A stretch of 64,000 nucleotides of DNA from Cristatella mucedo (taxonomy: Eukaryota > Bryozoa > Phylactolaemata > Cristatellidae). Location of the stretch: contig WPIO01000044.1 in assembly GCA_009760855.2 (NCBI GenBank), forward strand, positions 124,001 through 188,000, read 5' to 3'. A program made the position numbers and the translations under genes. Within the stretch, counting starts at the first letter, position 1, and each line of letters opens with the position of its first letter. Below, in pieces: positions 5,283 to 61,184 of this stretch. The notes below the pieces were generated by a model. It was not told the DNA's origin. It saw only the letters and a list, made by a program, of their open reading frames with translations, and ran no database searches.

Positions 5283-8200
5283 GAGAGGTAATAAACACGA
5301 AATGGACACCCGAATGATGGCGGCGGCCCGTGGCGTTGCGGTTGAGCCATGTGACCACGGACCCCTGGGTGTCCATAGAGGCCTGCCAGTGTATCCACGT
5401 ATCACGTATATGTCAACGGCTTCTGTGCGGCGGCAGCGGCAGAAGCGAAGGCACACCGGCAGACCATTGACTCACTGATCCCGCAAATAAATGCAAGCCA
5501 TGGCTGCCGCCGCATTGGAGTTTAAGTCTACGAAGGGAGGCACAGGCTTAACTCCTGCGAATAAGGAATGGGCACTCACTGGCCATGCCCCGGCGTTTTT
5601 TCACTGCCCCAGCGTTCTTTAAAGCCGGTGGCGTTCGTAGCCGGCTGGTAGCCACGGGTCATGCGTTCGCCCAAGTCGTCTCCGACGGAGGAGGCAGGCC
5701 AGCACACGGCCGAGTGGCATTCGTAGCCTGCAAGCTAGGGAAGGCTACAAAAGCAAACAAGCTAGGTGTTGCTGATTTATTGCATTGCTATTGACCTTTA
5801 TGACTATGTTATTTCCGCTGCGGCCAGTTTATGGCCGAGCCATGTTTATGCCCCAGTGTCATTTACGGCCTGGTAATTTCCATTGTAGTCAGTTGATGAT
5901 CTTGTTATTCGCACCACGGCTAGTGTACGGCCTAGACGAGATTACGACAGCACTGCCACGGGCTTAGGGGCCATGCCAGCTTATGAGGAAATGGCCTGTG
6001 ACAGGGAGTTACGGCATGCAGAGGCGGGGCAGTACGAACGCCGGTGGAGGGGAGGACGATCTGTGTTCGCGCCCGCGAGAAAACACTTCTCTACGAGCCC
6101 GCTTCTTAGCTCTTGTCTACAACCGCATACGCGCTGCTGACTAGAGCATTGACTACACTAGTAAAGGCATCGTCGCTACTTGGCGTTCGACGCATGCACT
6201 GTTGTGCCTCTCGTTTGCCGTGCACCGTTTTGTAGCTGTGCTTTTCGCATTCCAGATTGTGTAGCTGGAATCGCTCTGCTGGCTTCTATTTCTGCTGCAG
6301 CGCTTCGCTGTTTGAACGCCTGATCTTTAGATACGGGGTAGTACATAATGGGTGTTTAGTGGTCCTCCGTAGCTGGCAGTTGAGAGGAGGCTTCGGCCGA
6401 GGCGGCACACCTTGCAGAGCAGCATTACGTACAGAGATTCGCCATCCGACGGGGGGGGATTACCTGCCGCGAAAGTCCCGCTGCGAGCTGCGTTAGAGCT
6501 CGGTACAAGCTTCCGATCAATGCGGGCCGCCGCCGCCGTAATGTACAACTGCTAATACCATCCAATGTAATTGTATACACTCCAAACCGTAGGCTATAAT
6601 AGCCGGTTTCTAATGATTACACAACTCCGTAACCGCAAGCTATCTTCCGCACTTTCTTAATCTGGCTCAGTTAGGACGCCAACTTGTAGCTGTCTTTCGC
6701 CTGCAATGAATAGCAGGCGTAGAATTGCAAGCGTGGTGACCTTTATTATTAAAGCATATTGCCCTTGAAGGAAGACAAAATGGGGTTACGACTACCCAGT
6801 ATTGCTTTTTCCATCAGATGCTCCTCTACTGGTCAGTCTGATTTATGTATAACCAAATGAAAGCTGCGCTGCACTTTCCTCATTCGTCGTTCACCAGGGT
6901 ATCCATCTGTAGCAGCAGGGTATCCATTTGTATCACCGGGGTATCCATCTGCTCCACCAGGGTATCCATCTGCTCCACCTGGGTATCCATTTGTACCACC
7001 TGGGTATCCATCTGTACCACCTGGGTATCCATCTGTAACCACCTGGGTATCCATCTGTACCACCTGGGTATTCATCAGTTAATTAAAAGACAAGAGTTTC
7101 TGGGCTCGTGCGTACAGCTTGTGAAACTTGACCTTGATAGCCCAGGAGGTAATGTGCTTACTCTTCACGACCAAGGTCGTGGGTTTGAATCCTGCGGTGG
7201 GGCGATCCGTTATCGCCAACTGCAAGCGGTGGTGATCGCTAAATGGCTCTTCTGACGCTTAAAAAATGAGGCTGTTTAATCAGCGAAGATTTTTTTAATG
7301 AAAGAAGTCAGCAGTCTGAAAACGTACCTATTTATGACAGCATTTAGTGGGTCCCTGTGATTTGTCCTTTATGCGCTTATGCGTGCTGACACTTTGCATG
7401 CTGCCACTAACCACGCTTGCATGCTGACCCTGTGCATGTCACCCCTAACCATGTTATTCATGTTGTTCATCAAACATGATACCACTCACCATTCGATCAT
7501 GTTTCCTTTGCAGAAATTGTAAAGCGCCTAGAAGGAGATTGAGTTCTCTGAGGGTGCTTTATCGAGTGTATTATTATTATTATCATTAGCAGTCATCTGG
7601 CAACAAAATCTCTCCAGGCAGTCTGGTTTTCACTTGGCTGGTTATTTAAATCAAATGTCAGTCATAAAGCAGCCACAGTACAACTAACGTACAACTAACT
7701 AACGTATATTGGTATGAACATGATATTACTGTATTTCTGTCCAAGCAAACCTAAACATCACTCGTACCTGAAAAACCCTTGGAGCCGAAGTTCCATCCGC
7801 CTATTGCCAGCAGTACCTTCAAATTTCCGTCTTGCCTTTTCTTGGACGCAAGATCAACGAAAGCGGCTGCAATATAATAGATCTTTCTAGGCAGACCTCT
7901 GTCGCTTAAGGTAAATATCCACTACATTGCAAGACTGATAGTCAGGAAGCACGCCATCATTCCATGTAAAATCAGCTAATGAACCACAGGTCACAGATAG
8001 TACAAATCGGCTAAAACGAAGAGCAGAGTTTTACAATCCATACTGGATAAACCGAATCATTGAGGTCACCTAGGCTTTATACTTCTTTTTTTACCATATG
8101 ATGAGAGATAATGAGTTCATAAGTTTGAAGGGAGCGTTCACATTACCAGGATCTTTACCGCTAAACGAATTTTTCCAGAATCGATAACAGAGTGGAGGAG

Positions 8201-11200
8201 GAAAAGAGAGATGGAGAAAGGAGGGGAGGCATTTACTTTGCTACTACTCCTAGTAGGGTCTTGCACATAGCTAAGTATAAATCCTTGGGAAAATAGCTGC
8301 GGATTGTCAAAATAGATTGAGATTAATAGAATTAAAGCCTTGATTTCGATTCCGTTCCGCGACATGCTTGTCACTTGGTCAAGGCTAGCCATTTCACCAA
8401 AACGCCGATGTATGGCTCTGCGGTTCAAACTTAATCGGCATAGGCTCACATATCATAAACATAAAATTTCTGTGTATAGCGCCCTCAGAAAACTTAATCT
8501 ATTGTACAGCCTTCTTACTCTAGAACAATTTTACGGATATTAGTCCATAAGCGAAACTAAAATACGTAAAACAAAACTCTAAATGGGTGTTTTTTGAGGA
8601 GTTCTATATAGCCCACTCGGAGCCTAAGTTGCTTTTTCTGTGTGCATATTCCATTTCTTACGACAAAGATGAAGTAAAAAGCATGCATGCATGTGCATCT
8701 GAGTCATGAGGGCAGTTGATGAAGTGAGTAGCATGGAAAGCAGCAGCCCAGAATGGCTGGTAATGCTATGCCACAGTCGGCAATGGGATAGTAGATCTCG
8801 TTGCGGAAGAATTGTAGAAGCGAGTTCCAGTGTAGAACCTGAAGGGCAATAGCGTCTGTCGCAAGCATTCTTCCGCAAAAGAACGAACAGGCGAATGTTT
8901 TTGTCCATGGAGAACTATGGGCAAGAGGCTGAAACTGATGCAGCAGGGTCAGCTAGATATGAAGAAGCCAAGCCATGGCGGGTCTTGTAGGTCAGAGTAG
9001 GAATTTTGCTTAATATGGGACACTGATCAACCGGGAGCCAAAGCAGCTCGTCCAGCAAAGGAGACACCTGGCTGAACATGTGAGATTTGTTGAGTGACCT
9101 TGCAGCCATATTACTCAGTGACTTAATTGTTTCTTTCTTAATGAATTCAAAATGTCAAAACAAATTACAGTAGTCCCGTCCAAAAGAACGAGGGAGCTAT
9201 AAATATCTTCAGCCAGCCACCTTTTTAGGATGTGCGTAATTTTGGACAGGGATCGAAGGTGATTACTTGTTTTAGAAGCAGTCTTTTGTGTGTATATACG
9301 TACAAGTACGAATACATATGAGTACACACTGATAATTATCAAGATTGCCAAGCCATCCTCATCAGACTGATAATTATCAAGATTGCCAAGCCATCCTCAC
9401 CAGTTTCTTTTAAAACTCGGCAAATCTTGTTCTTCAAATCGCCATCCAATTAAAATATGAGTCTTGCAACATAATGAACACATACAGTTTATCTAACTTG
9501 AAATATGTTTTTATTATTTCACCGGAAAGATTTATTAAATGAACTCAAAGCCTTCGCGGCTTTTGGTGCGCCACTTTAACCAACCGACTTCCTCTCTAGC
9601 AATAAAGAAGCAATGGAATTAGAAAAGATAATAATAACAATATAAATACAGTTGCAAACCACCCTTGGAGAACCTAATCTCTTTCTAGGCACCTTACATA
9701 TGCTGTAAAGGAAGCATGAGCACAATGTCAACAGCGCCATGTGATTAGTGTTAATACGCACTGTGTCAGCTCGCACAAGCACACAAAGAAAAAATCACAT
9801 TGACTTCGCAAATGCTGGGAGGAAAAGATTCGCTTTTAGCTTCTTTTTAAATGTCATAGATACTTAAAAAAAAATAAGGAGCGGCCGAGTCAGGGGGAAT
9901 GGGGATTAAGTAAGCAGCTTGGAAGTAGCAGCACAGCACGTCTGGAAAGGATGTGGCAGATTCAGCAGCATAACATGTAGACGTGCACAAACTTGAAAGT
10001 CACTTCTACAGTCTAGAACCCACAGATCAAAAGCTTCGGTCGCTAAAAGTCGTAGGGTAAAATGATAGTAACGCTTATGTATGGCATTAAGGAAATCAAA
10101 AGAAGAAACTGGTTAAGGATGATGATAATAAGAATAAAACTGGTGAAGCAGTCTAGCTAGACGCAGATGAGCCAAACCATGGCTGGCCTTGCGACATTTC
10201 AGAATAAGAATTTTGTTCTGTATTCATTAGTTAGTACGCTCATTAACCAACAAAAACACGTGACTAAATTCTTTGACTTTGCAGCCTAGCTTTCCACGTT
10301 CGTCACCTGCTGTAGAGGAGTAATGGCTTTTTACGCCCGACCCGCCAATACTGACTTAGTTAGAGTATAATGTTTCCCCCAGCCGTTGATTTAGGGGGCT
10401 ACTGGCCTAATCCCCCTGCACGTGCTTCCTAAAGGGGCGGTGCTGCTCCAGCCGAAACTAAAGCCGCCCAAGCCCACCTGCACCGAGAATTCTTCCTATA
10501 GTCCTGCCCTAGCATCTGAGCAGCCCCTTGCGAGTGCCTTCCATGCTTTCGGGGGGCGGGATCTGCCCTAGGCTCGAAGAGCAGCCCTGGAGGCTTTCGG
10601 GGGGGGGGCGGGATCTGCCCTAGGCTCGGAGAGCTGCTCTGGAGGCTTTCGGGGGCGGGATTTGCCCTAGGCTCGGAAAGCTGCCCTGGAGGCTTTCGGG
10701 GGCGGGATCTGCCCTAGGCTCGGAGAGCTGACCTCGAGGCTTTCCGGGGGGGCCGGGATCTGTTCTGTCCTAGGCTCGGAGAGCTTATCTCGAGGCTTTC
10801 CGGGGGGCCGGGATCTGTCCTAGGCTCGGAGAGCTTATCTCGAGGCTTTCCGGGGGGCCGGGATCTGTCCTAGGCTCGGAGAGCTGACCTCGAGGCTTTC
10901 CGGGGGCGCTCCTGAATGCTTGGCTCTAGAGGGGAGCTAGTAGTTTTATTTAAGATGCGAAATCAAACAGCTAGCCAGAGCATGGAAAATTCAATTAGCA
11001 CATTTAGGGTTGGCACCCAGGTGACACTGTCATTCTATGGGAGTTTTGATCGCATTATTTGGGAAGTGATGAAGAGGTGACTCCGCTTAGACGGATCTCA
11101 GGTGAGCACTGCCTTAGGCTCATCACTTCCGGCTCCCCAAATTGAAGTCCAAGTATCTTTGCAGACATGTCATCCTGACAAGGCGTTCGAGCGGCATATT

Positions 11201-17801: not shown

Positions 17802-20800
17802 CTGCAAAGTTATGCTCATATAGTCACAGTGTAAAAGCCGCCCGCGACACATAAAGTCTAGGCGATATATATGGCTCTTTCAAGCCATGCGAGTACTTTC
17901 TCGTAGTCTATACGCAAATGACCTACCTTTTCATTTATTGTTTGAGGATCATCGAAACCCACCCAAGTTCCTTGAGCGTTCCAAGCATACATCTCCCTCC
18001 CCACATCATCTCGATGCCGGTTGCTCCACAGCGACGGGTCGTTGCAAATCTCGTAGTATGCTAGTCTGCCAGCCTCGCCGGTATACGTTCCGCCAGGCGC
18101 GACCCCAACGATTGGTGCCAGGAGACCAGAATTAGAGATTCCGGCAAGAATATACGATCTGCCATAGGCTGGTAAACCAAGAACGATCTTGTTGGATTGC
18201 TGCTTTCCAGCAGCTAGCCAGATGTTGACGGCATGTACCTGAAGAACAAAGGCCGGCTATTTTGACAATATTTATCTACAACGAGGCAAATCAAAACAGC
18301 CAAATCAAGAAATAAGGTGCCACAGGTTGCTTTTACATTGAATCCACTTGCTTTGTGATGGCGTTTTGTTATGAATACCATAGAATCCTATTAATATATT
18401 ACATTTGATAGCATCGCTCTAGAAACTCGCGGGCAAAGTAGAGTGGAGGCTGTTTATCTATGGACTTTTGAAGTATGAAATATAATTTACACTTTAACCT
18501 ACTGTATTGTACTGAAGGCAAGACAACTCTAGTTTGATGGGGTTGCTGCCTAAATATAGTTAAAACCTGAGCCTTAATAAATAGATCAATTCTATAGCAC
18601 CATCTTTGACCGTCAAGATAGGCAAACCTTTTTATAATGAAACGTTGATATAAAAGACTGGATTAGATTCAGAAGTCCTAGCAACTGTCACCCAGTTTCC
18701 CATCTTCCTTTTTTGTCAAAGATTCTTGAAAAGATTTCGATAAGCAGCTTGCAGCACGTATTGAAGAGAACGAATTGACAGAAAAAGTTAAGTCGGGATT
18801 CAAGCGACCCATTCCACTGAAACTGCTCTCACCCGTGTAGCATTTAGTTTGTATGCTCCCAAAGCCTGGAACTCCCTCCCAACTTGTGTCAGAACATCCC
18901 ATGACTAGATCACATTTAAAAGGAACTTATAAACACACCTATTTAGGACAGCATTTAGTGGGTCCCTGTGACTCGTCATTCATGTGCTTATGCGTGCTGA
19001 CACTGTGCATGCTGCCACTAACTACATTTGCATGCTGATCCTGTGCATGTCACCCCTAAACATATTATTCATTTTGTTTGTTTTTCAAGCATTATTTTAC
19101 TTATTATTCAATTTCATTTCCCTTTGCAGCAAATGTAAAGCGCCTAGAAAGAGATTAAGTTCTCTGAGGGTGCTTTATCAAGTGCATTATTATTATTATT
19201 ATTAACTATCGACATCCTATGCAGAAATGATGACGGGAATGTCACTACCCTGGTCCTGTTAGATATATCTGTTGGGTTTAACTATATTGATTGAGATATC
19301 CTGCTTGAACTATTGAGAACAACAATCAGTCTGGAAGACGAGGCACTGGCTTTGTAGTAATCGTGCTTGTCTGATCGTGTTTCAATCCCTATCATTTGGT
19401 GGTCAAGTTTCATCCACTAGACCTGACGCCTGTGGAGTCCCACAAAGGTTCATTCTCGGTCCTTTGGGGCTCTCCATTAGTACTAAATCTCTGAGAAGAG
19501 TGACTCGGGCCGATGGGATCCGCTATCACTTCTATGCCGCCGACACTCAGTCACCGGTTAAGCCCTCAAATTATGCTGCAACGACAAATGCACTGAATGC
19601 TTGCCTTGCAGACTTGCGATCCTGGATGTTCGCAAATTTTCTTAAAACGACGATACAACCTAACTCTACACATAGGATACTCCAAACGCACAACTGGACC
19701 TGACAACTCTGCTCTTCTAATAGGTTATGCTGTTGTCTGACCAGTACCGTGCGCTCGGAATTTAGGTGTCGTCTTTGACAAGTGCCTAAATTTTGTAAGT
19801 TCATTAAGAAGATTGCTTCCATTTCTAGCCATCACGTTCGATCCTTATCTAAGATTAAGGACTGTCTACCATGACGGCTTGAAAATAACATCACCAGCTC
19901 CCAGGTTATGCCGGATAGGCTGGAGTATTGCAATTAGAGTATTCCATTTTGGCTGGGCTATCGAAAAAGCCATTTGGCCTCTGGAGCTCGTGATTAGTAC
20001 GGCTGTAAGGCTAGTTAACAAAACCCCGGGAGGTTCAATCCTTTTTCTCCTTTAGAGAAGAAGCTGTGATAGCTCCCGTTTGATTAACTAGTCCAAATTA
20101 AAGTTCTTACGCTGACCCATAAGGCCTGCTATGTTTTGGCCCCTTCACGCCGAGCTGGACTGCTGCATTAGTTTCAGCCACCTCGCACCCTTAAATCCTG
20201 TGTGGAAAATAAATTAGCTGTTTCTTTCCTAGGCTTAAAGGCTGTTGGTGACAGAAGCTTTTACTCAGCAGGTTTGTGGATTAATTCTACAATTCTTACG
20301 CAACGACACGTATTCTCCTGCTGTTGGCTGTGACACATCCTCTCCAGCCGTCCTAAGCTACTACTTCCATGCGACTCACTTACTCAACTGCCCTCCTTAC
20401 TCAGCTATGCTTCTGACTTTCTCTTAGTTGTGTGAGATGAAGTATGTTGGCTACTGCAAGCGTACCGAAAGCCGCCTTAGGCTTTGAGTGCGCTATAGAT
20501 AACTGACCTGTGTAACATACGCTTAGTCTCCGTAGCTTTTTTATAGTTACAGACGGAGACATACTACATCACATTAAGGTGAATATACCCATATGCTATC
20601 AATTTGCTTTGGAAGGCAGAACATTGAAAAAAATGAGGGACAAACGATAAGATCAGCAAGTCATTTCTTTAGTGACAGCGACTCTGTCGTGACAATACGT
20701 TTGGCCCAGATCACCATCCAATACTTTATATAGTGAATGCGACAGCTGTCCTCTATCGCGAGCACTTAAAAATAAATCTGTTACCATGTCGAGCTCAATA

Positions 20801-23800: not shown

Positions 23801-26800
23801 AGACTGTGGAACTCACTTCCATAATTCTTAGGCAACGACAACTACTCTCCTGCTGCCGACTATGGCTCATCGTTTTCAGCGATCCTGAGCTGCTACTTCC
23901 ATGCTACTCACTACCTCAACTGCTCTCCTGACTCTGCTATGCTTCCCACTTTCTCTTTGTTGCGTGAGACAAAGTATGTTGGCTATCGAATGCGTACCGA
24001 AAGCCGCTTAGGCTGTAAGTGAGCTATAGTGAGCTATAAAACTCTCCTGCCTAACACCCACATAGTCTTTGTGGCTTTTTAAAGTTACAGACGGAGATAC
24101 ATTACATTACAGCCGCACACGGATGGCAGAGAATTTTCTTCTATTAAATGATGATAAAACTAACCTATTAGTTATGGGCGAACTAAGCGTGATTCAGAAA
24201 CTGGAAAGGCTAACGCTCAAAGTCGGCTCTGCCAGCATATCTCCGGTTGAATCTGGACGAAATCTAGGTGTCCTACTCCAAAGTGACCTTTCGTTAGACG
24301 ACCACATCAGGTCAACAGTCAAGTCTGCCTACTTTCAGATACATAACCTTGCTAAAATTCGTACATGTTTAGATAAGGATACACATCTAAGTTGGTCCAT
24401 GCATTTGCTACATCCCGTCTTGACTTCTGTAACTCACTGCTTGCTTGCCGACCAGCATGTGCAATCAGGCGATTATAGCTGGTGCAATACTCCGCAGCTA
24501 TGCTTGTCTGTCGTGAGCGTCGCAGTTGCCACATCACACCACTTCTCGCCGATCTGTACTGGCTCCCAGTCAAGCAACAGATTGACTTCAAGGTTTTGTT
24601 GCTCACTTTTAGGTCTCTTCATTCTTTGGCTCCAGCATATCTCTCAGATCTACTCCCCCACCAGGCCAAGCATCGTACCACCCGCTTTTCGGAATCCAAA
24701 GTTTACCAATACCTCGTACAAACCTCAAATCATTTGGAGACCGTGCATTTAGTTTGTATGCTCCCAAAGCCTGGAACTCCATCCCGACTTGCGTCAGAAC
24801 ATCCTTTGACTTGACCACATTTAAAAAGAACTAAAAAAACACACCTATTTAGGACAGCATTTAGTGGGTCCCTGTGATTCGGCCTTGATGTGCTTATGCG
24901 TGCTGACACTGTGCATGCTGCCACTAACCACATTTGCATGCTGACCCTGTGTATGTCACCCCTAACCATATTATTCATTTTGTTTGTCTATCAAGCATGA
25001 TATTACTCACCATTCAATTGCATTTGCCTTTGCAGCAAATGTAAAGCGCCCAGAGAGAGGTTGAGTTCTCTGAGGGCGCTTTATCAAGTGCATTATTATT
25101 ATTATAAGAAGCTATTTTACGTTTTAGTTGGAAAACTGGTACTTTGGTGGTTACTTTCTGGAAACAAATCAAAATAATCAAATAGTTGTTACCAGACACG
25201 AAAATTAATAGTTATAAGACGTATCTATAGCACCCTGAAAGAACTAAATCTCTTTCTGTGCACTTTTCATATAGAAAACTGCATTTAGAGTATCCCTTAG
25301 AAGCCTATAATGATCCCTCTACTGCCGTGTGGATTGTATTAAATCAAAATGAGGTGCCGATTGGGACAAAAATATTGTCAACTAATGGAAAGGACATTAA
25401 GAAATGAGGCAGATAGCTTCCTTAGTTTCAGGTGAGCCTTTGTCAGCTGACTAAGATCGCTGAGATTGAAAAGAAAGAGCTCCACAGCAGCCCCGAGCAT
25501 TGCGGCCCCGATTGACTGCTGACAGCAGGACTGCCAGCAGATGCTCATGCTGGTACCCCTAGCTGGGTGCCAGCACTATCACGGAGACAAGCTCCTCAGT
25601 CAAAGGGATAGACGCCAGGTAGTCGGCCTAGCTCGTGAGAGTCGTCCTTTTGGTGAGGGTTTCGCCACATGGGTCAAGGCAAAGGTTTGTCAGTGACTAA
25701 TTGTCGTGTGCTTGTATTCAAATCGTAAACCCTGTGGCAGCTTGACGGTACGGCATGGCGGCTTGGCTATCAGGCGCACTGGGAGGCCTGCCTGTCTGCT
25801 GACATGGGCACAGAGAAGTGGGGCCAACAGCAGCTGCCTCGCTTTAGAAGACGCGTGCCGTGGGGGGCCAAGCCACACAGTACGTCCCCTAGCCTTTCTA
25901 TTATTGGATGCCTCCAGAAAGGTCTCACCTGACAGAGTAAAGTAAACCTCGTCTTGTCATCAGGAGAACTACCGTTTGATCCTGGAATTTCCCAATCGAG
26001 CTCCAGTCCATCAAGTCCATACTGGCGTAGTAGAGAAACGGCAGACTGAATAAATGTCTGCCTGGTTGACTTCGTTGCTGACATTGCTAGAAATTTTAAT
26101 CAACAGCCACGGATGCATGCTTATCCTCAGCCTGTGGACCAGACCCGCGGTCCATATGCATGGAAGCAAAATCAGCTGCTTGCTCGATGGCAAACACGGT
26201 GCACTTAGAACGCCGAAATGGTAACCAACAGAGAAGGAGCTACATAAAGAGAAACTAGTGGACATCTCGCAGCTTAACCGCATAGCATGGATTTTAGATG
26301 TCCGAGGAAGTGCCAGCTATTTCTGTTAGTAGAGTGACTGAGTCCTGTCAAGATTTTTGTATGATAAGCCCTAAACTCTTCAGGATATTTGAACCGTGAG
26401 CCAGAAAGCTTGCATGTTCTTCTCCGATTCTCATTGGGTACGCCTTGCTTCTCACCCTTCAGATGTCACTTTAAGGCCCGAGATGTAACCTTCCAGACCT
26501 CCTGAGTCTCAGATTTTTTATCAATTCTGAAAAGTCTTAGAAGTTGTGCTGGGTATCTTAATTGTCTGTTTTGGCAGGGAGATGGAAACAGTAACTTTTA
26601 ATTACAACCTGCATTATTAGACATCGAGATGATGCCGGCTTGACGTTACTTAAATTGCCGAGGCATTGCAACGCACGACCGGATCGCTGAACATGTATGC
26701 TAAATTGGACTTGTCCAGAAATGGTCGCTGATTACATGGATCTCGAAAAAAAGGCTGCCAAAAGACTGCGAGAATGCGATCAATACTTGGTTCGGCCACT

Positions 26801-29800
26801 TTCTGAGGAGAGTGCTTCAACAGAGCTCGGTTCAACCGCGGCCGCTCTGTTTACAATTGCTGCTGCACGGCCAGCAAAAGTCTGTACTAGAGAGAGGAGG
26901 GCATGCTCCTTTCCTCAACAGGTTTGGCACTTGCGCTCGAGGCAATCGAGGTGCACACACAACACTTGCCTGCTTGTATTTCAGCAAATAAGTGAGGGGC
27001 TAACCACTCGGTTGGCTTTCACAGCCGGACTACACATAGCAACGTGCAAAACTGGGAGGAGCCCAGCAACGCCTGCTTCACGTTAAAGTAGGAGCTCCTG
27101 CTTGCCTACATTTGAGGGGAAATGATGCGTCGACACGACAGCGGCCATAGGTAGTGCCCTGAGGCAACTGAATAAGCACCGGTTCCAAGCTAGAGACAAC
27201 CAGTGGATCCTTTCCAGAGGCCGATAGAAGTAGCGCACGAGCACCTAAGTAACCCACACGTAGTTTTGAGCAGAACATTTCACTTACCAAAAAAGAATTG
27301 CCGGATTAATCTAGCTACGGGCGCCGCAGCTGCGTGTTTACGTGGCTTGGAACACTGTTTGCAGCATGCGCGTTAGTAAATAGCGACGAGTCACAGCAGC
27401 CTCAGTCACGTGCGTATCGCACGAAGTTTTCTACCTGGGAACGAAACGGCCAAAACTCGCTTACGTGCACATGATCTTTACTGAAACGGTAGCTGTCGCA
27501 GATGGCTCTAGGGTTATTTGTGCCAACAGGAAGGACTCGCGGCACGTGCACAATTAGTCAAAAGGGCGATGAGTTTCCTTGTCGAGCCTATTTATAATTG
27601 CGCTGCTATCATTTATACGTAAATAATGAATTCAGTTTGGTTTTCAGTCAGTGGGAATCTGTCTTTAAGATGGCTTCGCCAAGGAATGAGTCGATGTTAT
27701 AGAGATGCACTGTTTTGGTAAGGGCGTGCACTGGTGAATGGACGCGGCTGCCTACACAGCTAATATGGCGTCGTTTGTTCATACAGCCGTATAAGTCTGC
27801 TATGGGCACAGTGCTCATAGCAGGCTGTTCAACACGGTCGCCAGCGTCCACGGTCGTCAGCGTCCATGTTGAAAAGCCTGCTATGAGCACTGTGCTCATA
27901 GCAGACTGACATGGCTGTATGAAAAAACGACGCCGTATTACCTAGCCTACAGCAAGTGGTTATCGCCGGCATATCAATGTGTATTTGCTGCTACTACTAA
28001 TATCTATCATGCCTCAAAGTTCGCTGTTCCACTAGCGTAAATAAATATAATTTATTTGTAAAGCGCGCTAAGAGAGAACCTAATCTCTATCCAGGCGCTT
28101 CGCATATACCACGAGGCTTGAGCCAACTATCTCGGCCACTTAACACATTAACCTTGACCTTGATCGAGGCGGCTGCCTTAACCTCTGTAACCAGTAGGCT
28201 GAACCAGCACGGTATCGGTCGACAGCCGGCATGCTCTAGCACCTGTTATCTATGAACCTGTGGTTGATTGCTACACCCTCTAATGCTGGACATCGTGCGA
28301 GATATTATTCTAATCTCTCTAATGGGCTTTATCCGAGGGTCTGTGTCTTTGTGTCTAGAGATGTATTGACGGCTTAGACTAGGCGTTCTCGCGAAATTTT
28401 TTGCCAGCTAGCCGTTTTATTAATATTACAGGCCGTCGGTTAAGGCGGCAACATCCCATTTCGTGTAATCACGCATCCGAACGTTTACGAGAATGCGGCC
28501 GATCGCCAATCCCTGCATGACGTCGCGGCTTGCTGATAGAAAAGCAGGGCTATTATTGCCGCCGTCCCCTCCCCTTTGCAGTGAGGCAAAGACTCTTAAG
28601 ATGAGTGGCCAGAGATTAAATTTCAGGAAGCCATGCCAGGCGACCTTATCCGAGGTGCACAGACTTAAGACGGGCGGGGCGGCGGCAGGCGGGCAGATTC
28701 AGGTGGAGGTGCTGTGCTCCTTTTTGTTTCACCTTAATCGGGCGGCAGATCAAAAGCCCGAGCTTACCTGCTCAATCGTGACAAACAGCAGAGCGCCGAG
28801 GCTGCTGCATCTGGTCGCATTGAGAGTGCATGACCAGACACGTCCTGCATACGTCGCTTAGGTGTGGTACTGTTGAACCGGCTAGATGCACGAGCTTGGC
28901 AGTGTGTAGGGTTTTCGTACAACCGCTCGTGCGGCAAATGTATTGTATTATTTGATAGCAGCAAGGCTTTCTCATATCGAAACCTCACACCTTGCTAGTA
29001 AGTTCCAGTCTGGCTTTAGAGCTAATTACTTCACAGAGTCACCATTGCTTAGGGTATACAACGACCTACTTAGGAATGCAGACATGGGTAGAGTGTCTCT
29101 GCTTGTTTTGCTCGATCTTTCGGCAGCTTTTGATACCATCGATCACAAAGTTCTTCTAGAGCGCCTCTCATCTCGCCTGGGCATCACTGGCACTGCTCTG
29201 CAGTGGTTCAGGTCTTATCTCAGTGGGTAACTCCAGAGTATTGATGTGAAGGGACAAAGATCATTTGAAGTACCTCTGAAATATGGAGTACCTCAGGGCT
29301 CCGGGCTAGTCCCGGTTCGTTTCACGGTTTATACTCTCCCTCTTGCTGATGTGATTGCCAAGAACAATCTAGGCTTTCACCTCTATGCGGATGACACTCA
29401 GTTGTACCTTTGCTTTAATCCCTCCCAGCCTTCGAGCACCTTAAGATCTCTTAACTCACTTGCTGCATGCATTGACGACATCCTCACATGGATGGCAGCA
29501 GGTTTTCTAAAACTAAACGATGATAAAACTAACTTACTAGTTATGGGCAAACCCAGTGTGATTCAGAGATTGGAAAGGCTTACTCTCAAAATTGGCTCTG
29601 CCAGCATATCTCCAGTTGGATCAGCTCGAAATCTAGGTGTAATATTCCAAAGTGACCTCTCGTTAGACCATATCAGCTCCACGGTTAAATCCGCCTATTT
29701 TCAGCTTCATAACATTGCTAAGATTCGGGCTTCTTTAGATAAGGATACCACGTCCAAGTTGGTCCATGCATTCGTGACATCCCGTCTCGACTTCTGCAAC

Positions 29801-32800
29801 TCACTGCTTACTGGCCTACCAGCATGTGCGATCAGGCGATTGCAGCTGGTGCAAAACTCTGCAGCTAGGCTTGTCTGTCGTGAGCGTCGCAGTTGCCACA
29901 TTACTCCACTTCTCGCCGATCTGCACTGGCTACCAGTCAAGCAACGGATTGACTTCAAGGTTTTGTCGCTCACTTTTAGGTCCCTTTATTCTATGGCTCC
30001 AGCCTATCTGTCAGATATACTACCCCATCAGGCCAAGCATCGTACCACCCGCTTTTCGGAATCCAACAGTCTACAATTACCTAGTACAAACCTTAAATCC
30101 TTTGGAGACAGTGCATTTAATTCGTATGCTCCCAAAGCCTGAAACTCCCTCCCGACCTGCGTCAAAACATCCCCTGACCTGACCACATTTAAAAGGAACT
30201 TAAAAACACACCTATTTAGGGCAGCATTTAGTGGGTCCCTGTGATTCGTCCTTGATGTGCTTATGCGTGCTGACACTGTGCATGCTGCCTTTAACCACAT
30301 CTGCATGCTGACCCTGTGTATGTCACCCCTGACCATATTATTCATTTTGTTTATTTTTCAGGCATGATTTTACTTACCATTCAATTGCATTCACCTTTGC
30401 AGCAAATGTAAAGCGCCTTGAAAGAGATTAAGTTCTCTGAGGGCGCTTTATCAAGTGCATTATTATTATTTTAATCATTATTATTCCCGAAGTCTCGTAT
30501 TGCGATAGCCAATTTTGCTACGCATCGAGTGTGTCTTCGTGGCTTTCATGTTCGTGCGAAACAAAACAACGTTTGTACCGCTAAAGACTAAATTTAAGAA
30601 CTTGGCACTAATGCATCGTTTTAATTACAGAAATGAGCACTTGCTCATTCTACGATTTCCATCCAATTTCAACGCTTGTTTTTTGTTTTGCTTGCTACTG
30701 CGATGCATACTATTTGCCATCTTCTATAGAAAGGATCTCCAGACTGAAACCAGTTTAACTGGGCAGAACAAAATGTGAGCTCAAGTGAAAATATAAATAT
30801 CAACCAGGCTGCAGTTAAGTGCCAGCCACGGACATACTTAGGAGAGCAACTTTAAGAATTTGGGCAAAAATTTATAATTTAATAAGTATGACTGGAGCAG
30901 GAACCTCTACTAGGACAAATAAGTGATCACTGGCAGTCTGCTTATACCACTTATTTGCGAGTACTAGCCAAAAGCTTCCCATTTTGTAGAAGTGCTCTGG
31001 TAATGCACGCCCCCTACGGCACATGAAGGAGCAAATCGGCGTTGGTTGGAGTATGTCTCCTGCTGCCTTTAGATGTAAATATTGGGTAAAAAAGAAGTTT
31101 GCCTCGCGCGCAAGCGATGTCATATTGTATCAACCGTGTGGCTTGGTAACTGTACTTTACAGCGCCGTTTAGGCTGTCGTCTTCCCAAAAACTTATTAGT
31201 TCTATAAGAGATCAACAACTGCTTAAGTGAGCTCCGTAGTTTTAACTGTAGACTGTGCTTTAACTGGAGACTAGCTCTATCAGGCCATACGGTGTACCCC
31301 ATTAGAAATGGCTAAGCTACGCTCCAGATTTATAATACGTTGTTCTTCCTGGCATTGTCTACGATGTCAGGCATTAATGATTGATGACTGAAAGTTTAGC
31401 GTAGCTCCTTTGTGTTTTTAGCTGCTTTGTGTAGAGCTCGCTAGATCGACACTACTTGCAATAATAGTCTTGGAACGATACCACTGTCAACGAGTTAAGG
31501 AAACTCATGCATAAGTCTCTTAATTAGCAAAAATCAACTTTACTTCCGTATCTCAAAGGAGCAAAATGTCAACGCCGGTGGGGGCCTGGAACAGAAGACC
31601 AACCAATGATACCTGCATGAGAAAGCGTTTCTGGCAGCCTTGATGATCGCTTGGGGTGAAGAGTTTAAATACAGTACGGCTATGTATATGGTTTCTAAGC
31701 CCGGAACAGCATAGCATTCATACCTGAAAGAATTGAGCGTTTTCCCCATCCTCCAACCACGAGAATGGTTGTCAGATTACCGTCTCTTTGCTTCTTTCTC
31801 AGCAACTGATTGAGGACATCTGTAATATTATAAAACGGTGAATTGTATATGACAATGACAATAATAATAATGCACTTGATAAAGCGTCCTCGGAGAACTA
31901 AATCTCTTTCTGGGCGTTTTACATTTGCTGCAAAGGGAAACGGGATTGAATGCTGAGTAATAGCATGCTTGGTAGACAACATGTATAACATGGTTAGGTG
32001 TGATATGCACAGGGGCAGAATGCAAGTGTGGTTAAAGGCATCATGCACAGTGTCAGCGCCCAGAAGCACGTGAAGGACGAATCACAGCGACCCACTAAAT
32101 TCTGTCTTAAATAGGTGTGTTTTTAAGTTCTTTTTAAATGTGGTCGAGTCAGTAAATGTTTAAAGCAAGTCGGGAGTGAGTGTCAGGCTTTGGGAGCATA
32201 CAAACTAAATGCATGGTCTCCAAAGGATTTGAGGTTTGTACGAGATATTGGTAGACTGTTGGATTCCGAAAAGCAGGTGGTACGATGCTTGGCCAGGTGG
32301 GGGAGTAGATCTGATAGATTTGCTGGAGCCAAAGAATGAAGTGACCTAAAAGTGAGCGAAAAAACTTTGAAGTCGTTCCGTTGCTTGAATGGTAGCCAGT
32401 GCAGATCGGCGAGAAGTTGTGTGATTTGGCAACTGCGTCGCTCACGACAGACAAGCTTAGCTTCGGAGTTTTGCATCAGCTATAATCGCTGGGTTGCACA
32501 TGCTGGTAGGCAAGCAAGCAGTGAGTTACAGAAGTCAAGACGGGATGTCACAAATGCATGGACCAACTTAGACGTGGTATTATTATCTAAACAAGCCTGA
32601 TTTTTAGTAAAATTATATATCTGAAAGTTGGCAGACTCGATTGTGGAGCTGATACGGTCGTCTAATGAGAGGTCACCATGGAACGTGACACCTAAATTTT
32701 GAGCTGATTCAACTGGAGATATGCTGGCTGAGCCGATTTTGAGCGTTAGCCTTTCCAATTTCTGAATCACACTTGGTTTGCCCATAACTATTAAGTTATT

Positions 32801-45137: not shown

Positions 45138-45990
45138 ATGATAATAATAATAATAATAATGCATTTGATAAAGCGCCCTCAGAGAACTTAATCTCTCTCT
45201 AGGCGCTTTAAATTTGCTGCAAAGTGAAATGCAATTGAATGGTGAGTAAAGTCTTGCTTGATAAACAAAGAAAATGAATAATATGGTTAGAGGTGACATG
45301 CACTGGGTCAGCATGCAAATGTGGTTAGTGGCAGCATGCACAATGTCAGCACGCATAAGCACATGAAGGACGAATCACAGGGACCCAATAAATGCTGTCC
45401 TGAATAGGTGTGTTTTTAAGTTCCTTTTAAATGTGGTCTGGTCAGGGGATGTTCTGACGCAGGTCGGGAGGGAGTTCCAGGCTTTGGGAGCATATGAACT
45501 AAATGCACGGTCTCCAGAGGATTTGAGGTTTGTACGGAGTATTTGCAGACTGTTGGATTCCGAAAAGCGGGTGGTACGATGCTTGGCCTGATGGGGAGTA
45601 TATCTGAGAGATAGGCTAGAGCCAAAGAATGAAGTGACCTAAAAGTAAGCGACAAAACCTTGAAGTCAATCCGTTGCTTGACTGGTAGCCAGTGCAGGTC
45701 GGCGAGAAGTGGTGTGGTGTGGCAACTGTGACGCTCACGACAGACAAGCCTAGCTGCAGAGTTTTGCACCAGCTGCAATCGCCTGATCGCACATGCCGGT
45801 AGGACTGCAAACAGTGAGTTGCAGGAGTCGAGGTGGGTTGTCACAAATGCATGGACCAACTTAGATGTGGTATCCTTATCTAAACAAGCCCTAATTTTAG
45901 CAATGTTTTGAAGCTGAAAGTAGGCAGATTTGACTGTGGAGCTGATATGGTCGTCTAACGAGAGGTCGCTTTGGAATATGACACCTAGAT
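45138..45990 (-). mobile_element. LINE-B, 5'-truncated copy
   Basis: The minus strand encodes [19 protein letters not shown] through [17 protein letters not shown] in one 201-codon frame, then the 3' block, hairpin and (ATT)n. Its 5' end abuts the (ATT)n-like tail of the next LINE-B. Confidence 0.93.
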
Positions 45991-46004
45991 AGATATAATA
46001 GTGA

Positions 46005-46646
46005 TAATTATAATAATACATTTGTTTATAGTGCCCTCGGAGAACTCAATCTCTTTCTAGGCGCTTTCCATTTGCTGCAAAGGAAGCATGATTGAATGGT
46101 TAGTAGTAGCATGCTCAATGAGAACAAGCATAACATGGTTAGAGATGACATGCACAGGGTCAGCATGCAAATATAGTCAGTGGCAGTATGCACAGTTTCA
46201 GCACGCATTAGCACACAAAAGACGAATCACATGGAGCCACTAAAGGCTGTGATAAATAGATGAGTTGTGGCAACTGCGAAGCTCACGACAGACAACCTAG
46301 CTGCAGAGTTTTGCACCAACCGTAAACTCCTGATAGCACAGGCCAGTAGACCAGCAAGCAGTGAGTTACAGAAATCAAGACGGGATGTCACAAATGCATG
46401 AGCCAGTTACGATGTAGTATTCCTGTCTAAGCAAGCTCAATTTTTAGCAGTGTTATGAAGTTGAAAGTAGGTTGATTTGACTGTAGAGCTGACGTGATCG
46501 TCTAATGAAATGTCACTTTGGAGCAGGATACCTATATTTCGTGAAGGTTCAACAGGAGATATTCTGGAAGAGCCGATTGTGAGCGTTAACCTTATCAATT
46601 TCTGAATTACACTTAGTTTGCCCATAACTGGTAAGTTGGTTTTAAT
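46005..46646 (-). mobile_element. LINE-B with internal deletion
   Basis: The minus strand has the 3' tail and block (46005-46260) and then jumps at about 46262 to upstream ORF sequence (RTxxKIGSSRISPVEPSRN region), losing several hundred bp that are present in other copies. Confidence 0.85.
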
Positions 46647-53279: not shown

Positions 53280-53843
<564 letters not shown>

Positions 53844-59895: not shown

Positions 59896-60154
59896 TATTA
59901 TATGTGAGAATTTGAACTACTGCCAATACCGGTAGCAGCACGGAAAGGTGGACTAGGAGCCACTTGGAACCTTTGCAGCTCATACGCAGAAGACCGTTTA
60001 TGCTTAATTGAGTAAAATTTGGGAGGCAAACTTGAAGCACAGTGCTGCTTAATGCGAAATCGGAAATGGATCTTCGCTCAGCCATTTTCGGGCGGATTAC
60101 AATTGATTGCAGTGGTCTTGGATCAGTACAAAACATTGGTACAGGTCGTTATAA
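59896..60154. other. no recognised feature
   Basis: Short interval between two SINE copies; nothing recognised. Confidence 0.35.
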
Positions 60155-60303
60155 ATTAGCTGATTAAAGCCTTATTTGTATAGTGCCAGAAGAACCGTAA
60201 CGGCTATCCCCACTTTGGTGTTGGCATTAAAGGATGGCTCACTGCAGGATTCGATCCTACAACCTCCTTCGTGAACAGCCAGCATCTTACCTCCTGGGAT
60301 AGG
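60155..60303 (-). mobile_element. SINE-1 copy
   Basis: On the minus strand: CCCAGGAGGTAAGATGCTGG, GGATCGAATCCTGCAGTGAG box B, and the AATAAGGCTTTAATCAGCTA tail. Its 5' end touches the inverted-repeat element at 60305. Confidence 0.88.
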
Positions 60304-60403
60304 TTGTAGGACATTTCCCCCCCCCCCGACATTTCCCCCGGATATTTCTCCAGGGTAGGACATTTCCCCCTATGCTGATTAATGTATAACTAACAATACA
60401 GAC

Positions 60404-60404
<1 letters not shown>

Positions 60405-60491
<87 letters not shown>

Positions 60492-60510
60492 TTATATATT
60501 TATACATGAT
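60405..60510 (+). repeat. (TA)n/(TG)n microsatellite
   Basis: TATATA runs flanking a GTGTGTGTGT core. Confidence 0.95.
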
Positions 60511-60514
60511 CAAA

Positions 60515-60681
60515 TGAAGTTCGCGCTCTATTGAAATAAAATAAACTCAGTACAAGCCGACGTCACCGGCCGCTGCCGACGCCACCACCGACGCCGCGCT
60601 TGCCGTACCGCCTCCGTCTGTCGTGCTATCGAGTCGCCGCTTATACTGAGTTGATTTTATTTCAATAGAGCGCGAACTTCA
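60515..60681. repeat. inverted repeat, arms of at least 37 bp
   Basis: The left arm at 60516-60552 begins GAAGTTCGCGCTCTATTGAA. The right arm at 60644-60680 is its complement with one mismatch in 37, and weaker pairing extends inward. The loop is about 90 nt and GC-rich. Each arm carries AATAAA on the strand reading toward the loop. Confidence 0.93.
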
Positions 60682-61184
60682 CCGCGGTCGACGCGCGACG
60701 CCCGGTGCAGCAACGACTGCGGCGGCGGCGCCGGTGAGCTTTGGACGGGCGGTAGACGGCGGTGCCGATGTCGGGAGGGGCGGCGACGGCGGCGGTCGAG
60801 GATACTGCTACGCGCTCGCAGCTTCTGCAGAGAGCGTCTGCTGCCAGCCGCCCGTGGCAGAGCTTTGACCTTGCACTTGGTGTTCTGCCGAAAAGCAGGG
60901 CCACAGCGACCGCATTTGTAATGACTATAATGTAGGAATATGTTACATGTTATATAATATATAATACTTTTACAAGATATTAAGCAAGGCAGTTTATATG
61001 ATGGCATTTCCATACGGGAGGGGAGAAAAGGTCCTACTCCGGGGGGGGGGAGGGGGAGAGGTCCAACTCCAAGGGGGAATGTCGGGGGGGGGAAGTCCTT
61101 GGGGGAATGTCCGTACCCCCTGGGCTATCATTGCCCTATATTTTTTATTGTGCATTACGATAAAAGAGGCATGCGCAGACGTAT

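Follow-up and report, generated by a model that had tools for sequence, protein, structure and literature searches.

A family of probable Mutator-like non-autonomous DNA transposons with composite ends and differing GC-rich cores in the bryozoan Cristatella mucedo

We analysed a stretch of 64,000 nucleotides of the Cristatella mucedo genome (the window, on a contig labelled C387 in our searches), and searched the 572-Mb assembly to which it belongs. The window contains an 818-bp element at 60302-61119, directly beside a tRNA-derived SINE (60147-60301, minus strand), at its 5' head. This SINE is one of nine copies of its family in the window, the others lying near 1561, 4254, 7138, 14577, 41184, 52216, 55893 and 56400. 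An exon of a GH18 chitinase-like gene was found at 17858-18256 (minus strand) through a match to PF00704, its closest solved structures being those of chitotriosidase. Three reverse-transcriptase-like open reading frames, which we take to be of the L2 non-LTR type, are located at 29231-30142 (plus), 24066-24752 (plus) and 45416-46045 (minus), and only the first has a Pfam match (RVT_1). The repeats of the window include two inverted pairs longer than the one inside the element, at 27761-27841 / 27860-27940 (72 of 81 bases, 18-base loop) and at 30394-30470 / 31860-31936 (71 of 77), the second being probably inverted retroelement tails, as well as a GC-rich minisatellite of about 50-bp units at 10545-10906 and a 144-bp (TC)n tract at 53282-53425.

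A query with the element returned 973 first-look candidates from the assembly. The best 40 of these were scored, and the 39 other loci discussed below come from this set and are hence chosen for likeness to the window copy. Both ends were recognised in 32 of 40 copies (the 39 loci and the window); the eight copies in which an end was not recognised were left out of the duplication count, and a few of the 32 kept ends look misplaced. Eight flanking columns match between the two sides in these 32 copies (20, 16, 18, 18, 19, 21, 19 and 16 of 32); the columns next to these match in about 10. With shifts of one or two bases allowed, at least six of the eight bases are duplicated in 22 copies and fewer than six in 10; shuffling left and right flanks between copies under the same shift rule gave at least six in a mean of 1.0 copies, with a maximum of 5. 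This common register of ends and duplications places the window copy at 60302-61119 (GGTTGTAGGACATTT...AATGTCCGTACCCC, the labels left and right being arbitrary), with a target-site duplication of CTGGGATA (60294-60301, plus) and CTGGGCTA (61120-61127, plus) that is identical at 7 of 8 bases. The sequence-only reading had delimited the element at 60305..61120, which located it correctly but needs this small correction at its boundaries. Our own initial reading of the flanking repeat as 9-14 bp was discarded in favour of the 8 bp given by the 32-copy register.

Each end of the family consists of a 7-bp terminal motif followed by words of about 13 bp of the type GGACATTTCCCCC, in numbers that vary by copy. 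In the window copy, the left motif GGTTGTA (60302-60308, plus) and the right motif GGGGTAC (61113-61119, read inward on the minus strand) are asymmetric and lie outside the inverted words, and both are followed by GGA. Twelve matches to GGACATTYCCCC with at most 2 mismatches were found in the window, compared to a shuffle mean of 5.1, and 12 were reached in 1 of 100 shuffles. Eight of the twelve fall inside the element, four on the plus strand at 60309-60369, forming the left array (60309-60370), and four on the minus strand forming the right array (61053-61112). The mirrored GGACATT(T)CCCC words originally noticed at both ends are thus present above chance. Of 1000 dinucleotide shuffles, 3 reached the best local alignment of the two ends, as did 3 of 1000 when C and G runs had been collapsed, indicating that the likeness of the ends is not due to poly-C alone.

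The left end GGTTGTAGGACATTTCCCC was found at 316 places in the genome with at most one mismatch, and its reversed control at none; exact right ends, in two spellings, were found at 75 and 64 places, with controls of 0. By these counts, the family is dispersed and numbers several hundred copies or more. The 40 copies differ by 4-11% from a core consensus from which seven rows were omitted (three of hairpin form, described below, and four with a missing anchor). We considered whether the structure might be no transposon at all, its C-run words forming a tandem or satellite-like repeat with symmetry arising by chance. The ends are rich in simple sequence, and three of the eight words (one left, two right) have 2 mismatches; against this, the word excess, the end-alignment shuffles, the occurrence of a fixed end at hundreds of scattered places (316 against 0) and the 8-bp duplications refute such an origin, to which we give negligible weight. 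The prediction of a mobile inverted-repeat element that lacks a transposase was therefore borne out, in that many other copies with target-site duplications exist and the ends do not align through poly-C only. When viral and prokaryote collections were scanned for the exact pattern, 10, 0 and 9 stretches were obtained, taken as chance by their expected number, and a literature search by sequence string returned only unrelated titles.

Insertion of the element at the 5' head of the SINE is weakly suggested by an empty-site comparison with other SINE copies. One of seven such copies (that near 7138) runs on into the right flank of the element for 11 of 12 bases, a level expected for 0.2% of random 12-mers, and the joined flanks scored better than the element-side sequence in two of the seven, by margins of 3 points and 1 point. 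By eye, we also noted that the SINE carries TCCTACAACCT (60255-60265), the exact inverse of AGGTTGTAGGA at the left end of the element (60301-60311), which may be chance or may be a reason for the insertion site.

We compared the family with published elements. The duplications of Mutator-like elements (MULEs) are 8-11 bp long (PMC6446971), a range into which the eight duplicated columns of our 32 copies fall. Most MULEs have G or C in their first three terminal bases (PMC13359780); here the left end, GGT, has two of three and the right end, GGG, three of three. The closest anatomy is that of Tm1, of the Phantom subclass of Mutator/Foldback elements in root-knot nematodes (PMC3169594). As in the family, the terminal motifs of Tm1 (A1 CGGTTAA, A2 CCTACCC) are 7 bp long, asymmetric, placed outside an inverted repeat and followed by GGA; Tm1 also shares variable numbers of tandem units (about 14 bp in Tm1) and mostly non-autonomous copies (PMC3169594). 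The motifs themselves resemble each other only approximately and with a one-base offset, the unit sequences are unrelated (CGATTCAGTATCGC in Tm1, GGACATTTCCCCC in the family), and duplications are mostly 9 bp in Tm1 but 8 bp in the family (PMC3169594). In the portions of that paper available to us, no target consensus is reported for Tm1, a further likeness to the family, and no GC-rich cores are described, in contrast to the family (PMC3169594). Muta1 and its relatives, MULEs of Aedes aegypti, likewise combine a terminal motif with tandem subterminal repeats (12 bp in Muta1), have duplications of 8 or 9 bp and encode FLYWCH and MULE transposase domains (PMC5225508). Over 300 non-autonomous derivatives vary in repeat number and interior there; the transposase partner is known and active in yeast, whereas that of the Cristatella family is putative (PMC5225508). 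With its four words at each end in the window copy, and other word numbers elsewhere, the family shows the composite ends of Foldback/Tm1-type elements, in which short units of about 12-15 bp are repeated in tandem, and its C/G-run words form subterminal tandem arrays with the anatomy published for Muta1 and Tm1.

We identified MULE-coding sequences (PF10551) at 59 places in the same genome, of which 24 were examined. Eleven of the 24 carry GGACAAAATGTCC words (type A), five carry GGACAATTCGG words (type B), three carry another word (type D, one assigned by eye) and five carry none of these. Termini among the elements with GGACAAAATGTCC or GGACAATTCGG words are GGTACTAGGAC.. / GGTGACAGGACA.. 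and GGTTCTAGGGC.. / GGTAACCGGACA... Types A and B share with the family a GGT..TAGG-type terminus on one side, GG.....GGACA on the other, and arrays of GGAC words. All four coding MULEs whose flanks were read have an 8-bp duplication, as the family does: 8 of 8 bases in L077, where AATGGAAA occurs twice, and 7 of 8 in L074, L076 and L078, the last with GGGCGGAC/GGGCGGGC. They differ from the family in having their own word sequence and the PF10551 domain. The left 12-mer of the family matches type B at 10 of 12 bases, a level reached by 0.07% of window 12-mers starting with GG, and agrees with type A at 9, both rare by chance. At the right end, the 12-mer shares 8 of 12 bases with either type, which is not very rare (2.5% of window GG-12-mers). 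The termini of type D are unlike those of the family. One of the five type B elements (a PF10551 fragment) is nested in the right word array of a family copy (L080, 252-2413), apparently at ATTTCCCC, and the outer duplication of that copy, TGCTCAGT, is exact with a shift of one base.

The search for an autonomous partner thus found similar ends on coding MULEs of types A and B, but exactly the family's ends on none of the 24 examined of the 59 places. Consequently, we infer mobilisation in trans. Looser end-like matches (at most 3 mismatches) near three MULE loci were considered as partner ends and, on reading, looked like chance.

Duplications of 8 bp also occur outside MULEs. The family could thus be a non-autonomous element of another superfamily with this duplication length (Merlin, hAT or P), its ends being merely MULE-like, and both the lack of identical ends on the 24 examined MULE loci and the weak likeness at the right end would fit such an origin. 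Against it, the GGT..TAGG-type left end, the differing second end and the GGAC arrays are common to types A and B, and published MULE/Foldback elements have composite ends built of short units in tandem (PMC3169594, PMC5225508). We accordingly regard membership of one of these superfamilies as unlikely. The ends, the subterminal word arrays and the 8-bp duplication fit the MULE/Foldback type, several members of which are encoded in the same genome; the element is thus not unclassified, as it had first been called. Our preferred reading, to which we assign a probability of roughly 0.85, is that of a non-autonomous Mutator-like element (MULE) of the Foldback/Tm1 type, a DNA transposon moved by cut and paste through a MULE transposase from elsewhere in the genome. 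It represents a new family within a known kind of transposon, so that a formerly unclassified structure becomes a placed family with exact ends.

Under this Mutator-like reading, a MULE transposase encoded elsewhere in the genome would recognise, at each end, the 7-bp terminal motif and the tandem array of GGACATTTCCCCC words, the words serving as its presumed binding sites. It would excise the element and reinsert it with an 8-bp staggered cut, producing the 8-bp duplications, and the number of words may change by slippage or recombination. The 8-bp duplication and the ends GGTTGTAGGACATT / GGGGTACGGACATT together provide a search handle for the missing transposase.

Between the ends of family members lies first a conserved piece on the left, then a microsatellite, next an arm of 43 bp and finally a GC-rich core. 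The window copy contains in addition an internal inverted repeat of 41 of 43 bases (60515-60557 / 60639-60681, loop of 81), one of five inverted repeats that a complexity filter left of the 36 pairs scanned across the window; the 36 of 37 bases first reported are a subset of it. The first arm (60515-60557, plus) corresponds to the single arm of the usual form of the family, and the segment 60558-60681 (minus) corresponds to the inverted first part of the GC-rich core followed by an inverted duplicate of the arm. The order arm, inverted loop, inverted arm, core of the window copy recurs in L028 and L029, two of the 39 loci. The second arm was found in none of the remaining 37 usual-form loci, drawn from the best 40 of the 973 candidates. 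One arm is present in 31 of these and none at threshold in 6, and the loop lies directly before the core, reversed relative to the window copy, in 36 of 37; in L059 the sole loop match falls inside its core. A layered symmetry, as the sequence-only reading described it, is therefore a property of the window copy and those like it but not of the family as a whole.

A search for the junction of the hairpin form found six places including the window (control 0), all of which align with the same junction. Both ends are recognisable in five of these six loci, some with 3 mismatches; no right end was seen in L102 within the 1.4 kb sampled. Duplications at these loci are 7 of 8 bases in the window, 7 of 8 in L103 (shifted by one base), 6 of 8 in L029 with a shift and 4 of 8 in L028, with none in L104. 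The absence of a second arm from the 37 usual-form loci, and the junction common to six separate loci, point to a single inverted duplication that spread as a minor subfamily. By this comparison of copies, the hairpin arose once, when the arm was duplicated in inverted orientation and the adjoining segment was inverted, probably through template switching, and it was then copied by transposition. Two other origins were rejected: a nested element with terminal inverted repeats, as no duplication was seen around the repeat and the other copies point to inverted duplication, and a flip-flopping loop, as no usual-form copy has the second arm. A separate event of inverted duplication has apparently occurred at the same place in L039, where a short additional stretch of arm sequence (TTGATTTCAATAGAGCG) lies inverted next to the arm.

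The hairpin might instead be the functional part of the element, a selected stem-loop acting as a small-RNA source or regulator. Folding as RNA, one of the checks initially proposed, gave -80.9 kcal/mol (z -9.0 against shuffles), which together with the well-matched arms of the window copy and the occurrence of the structure at six loci is consistent with such a role. Single-strand DNA folding of nearly the whole element (60302-61118) gave z -11.7 against 20 shuffles; no Rfam family at the gathering threshold and no tRNA gene was found. In five of the six hairpin copies (L104 was left out of this count), 29 changes are on one arm only and four are the same on both; the four keep pairing, where about 0.5 would be expected by arithmetic from the same counts. 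However, three of these four are located at arm positions 9-10, at or beside CpG, so that they can be put down to a mutable site or to conversion between the arms, and the 29 one-sided changes and the 37 copies without a second arm also speak against selection. We consider a functional stem-loop very improbable. On balance, the hairpin looks largely unselected, with arms that mostly decay independently.

The GC-rich block noticed at the outset (60558-60905) has a CpG observed/expected ratio of 1.36, compared to 0.81 for the window. It includes most of core 1 (60682-60920, plus), which is CpG-rich and without a coding match. No Pfam family, PF10551 included, matches the longest open reading frame of the element (155 aa between stops), as expected of a non-autonomous copy. 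Beyond the 39 loci, seven further copies were taken for their exact ends. One (L070) has core 1, and the other six share the arm but have no likeness to core 1. The interiors of two of these six were read (L068, 200-983; L071, 238-1071), and these form a second subfamily with the ends and arm of the family, a different GC-rich core and then degenerate CCCTAAA-like (telomere-like) repeats. No BLASTN likeness was seen between the two cores. The interior thus looks like passenger DNA, made up of a GC-rich core, a microsatellite and, in the minor subfamily, a second, inverted copy of the arm.

Capture of the cores is the boldest part of the proposed mechanism and is putative. Pack-MULEs of plants likewise have the same ends around different interiors, which are GC-rich in both subfamilies here (PMC5225508, PMC3169594). 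We tentatively raise a further possibility, held with rather low confidence, that this is an animal-type Pack-MULE family. The fixed ends, word arrays and conserved arm would form a shell that exchanges unrelated CpG-rich cores, one of them next to CCCTAAA-like repeats, and would thereby carry CpG-island-like sequence through the genome, and template switching at the arm would make new hairpin versions that are still mobile. The biology is of a known type; the proposed exchange of cores is its most notable part. In this family one shell encloses differing cores, and a mobile element has taken along an inverted duplication that happened once.

Finally, the TA/TG tract of the window copy, present as first described ((TA)n/(TG)n, 60404-60504), occupies the place of variable microsatellites or of a long TA-flanked insert in other copies. 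A long insert was found at this place in 16 of 34 measured copies (L032, L033 and 14 others), with both CAGTCGTCCCTCG-type ends in 15, and also in L070 and L081. It is 643 bp long in consensus, has CAGTCGTCCCTCG inverted ends and is located at a TA; by its look it is a nested MITE, which we take to be mariner-like, carried along by a large subfamily.
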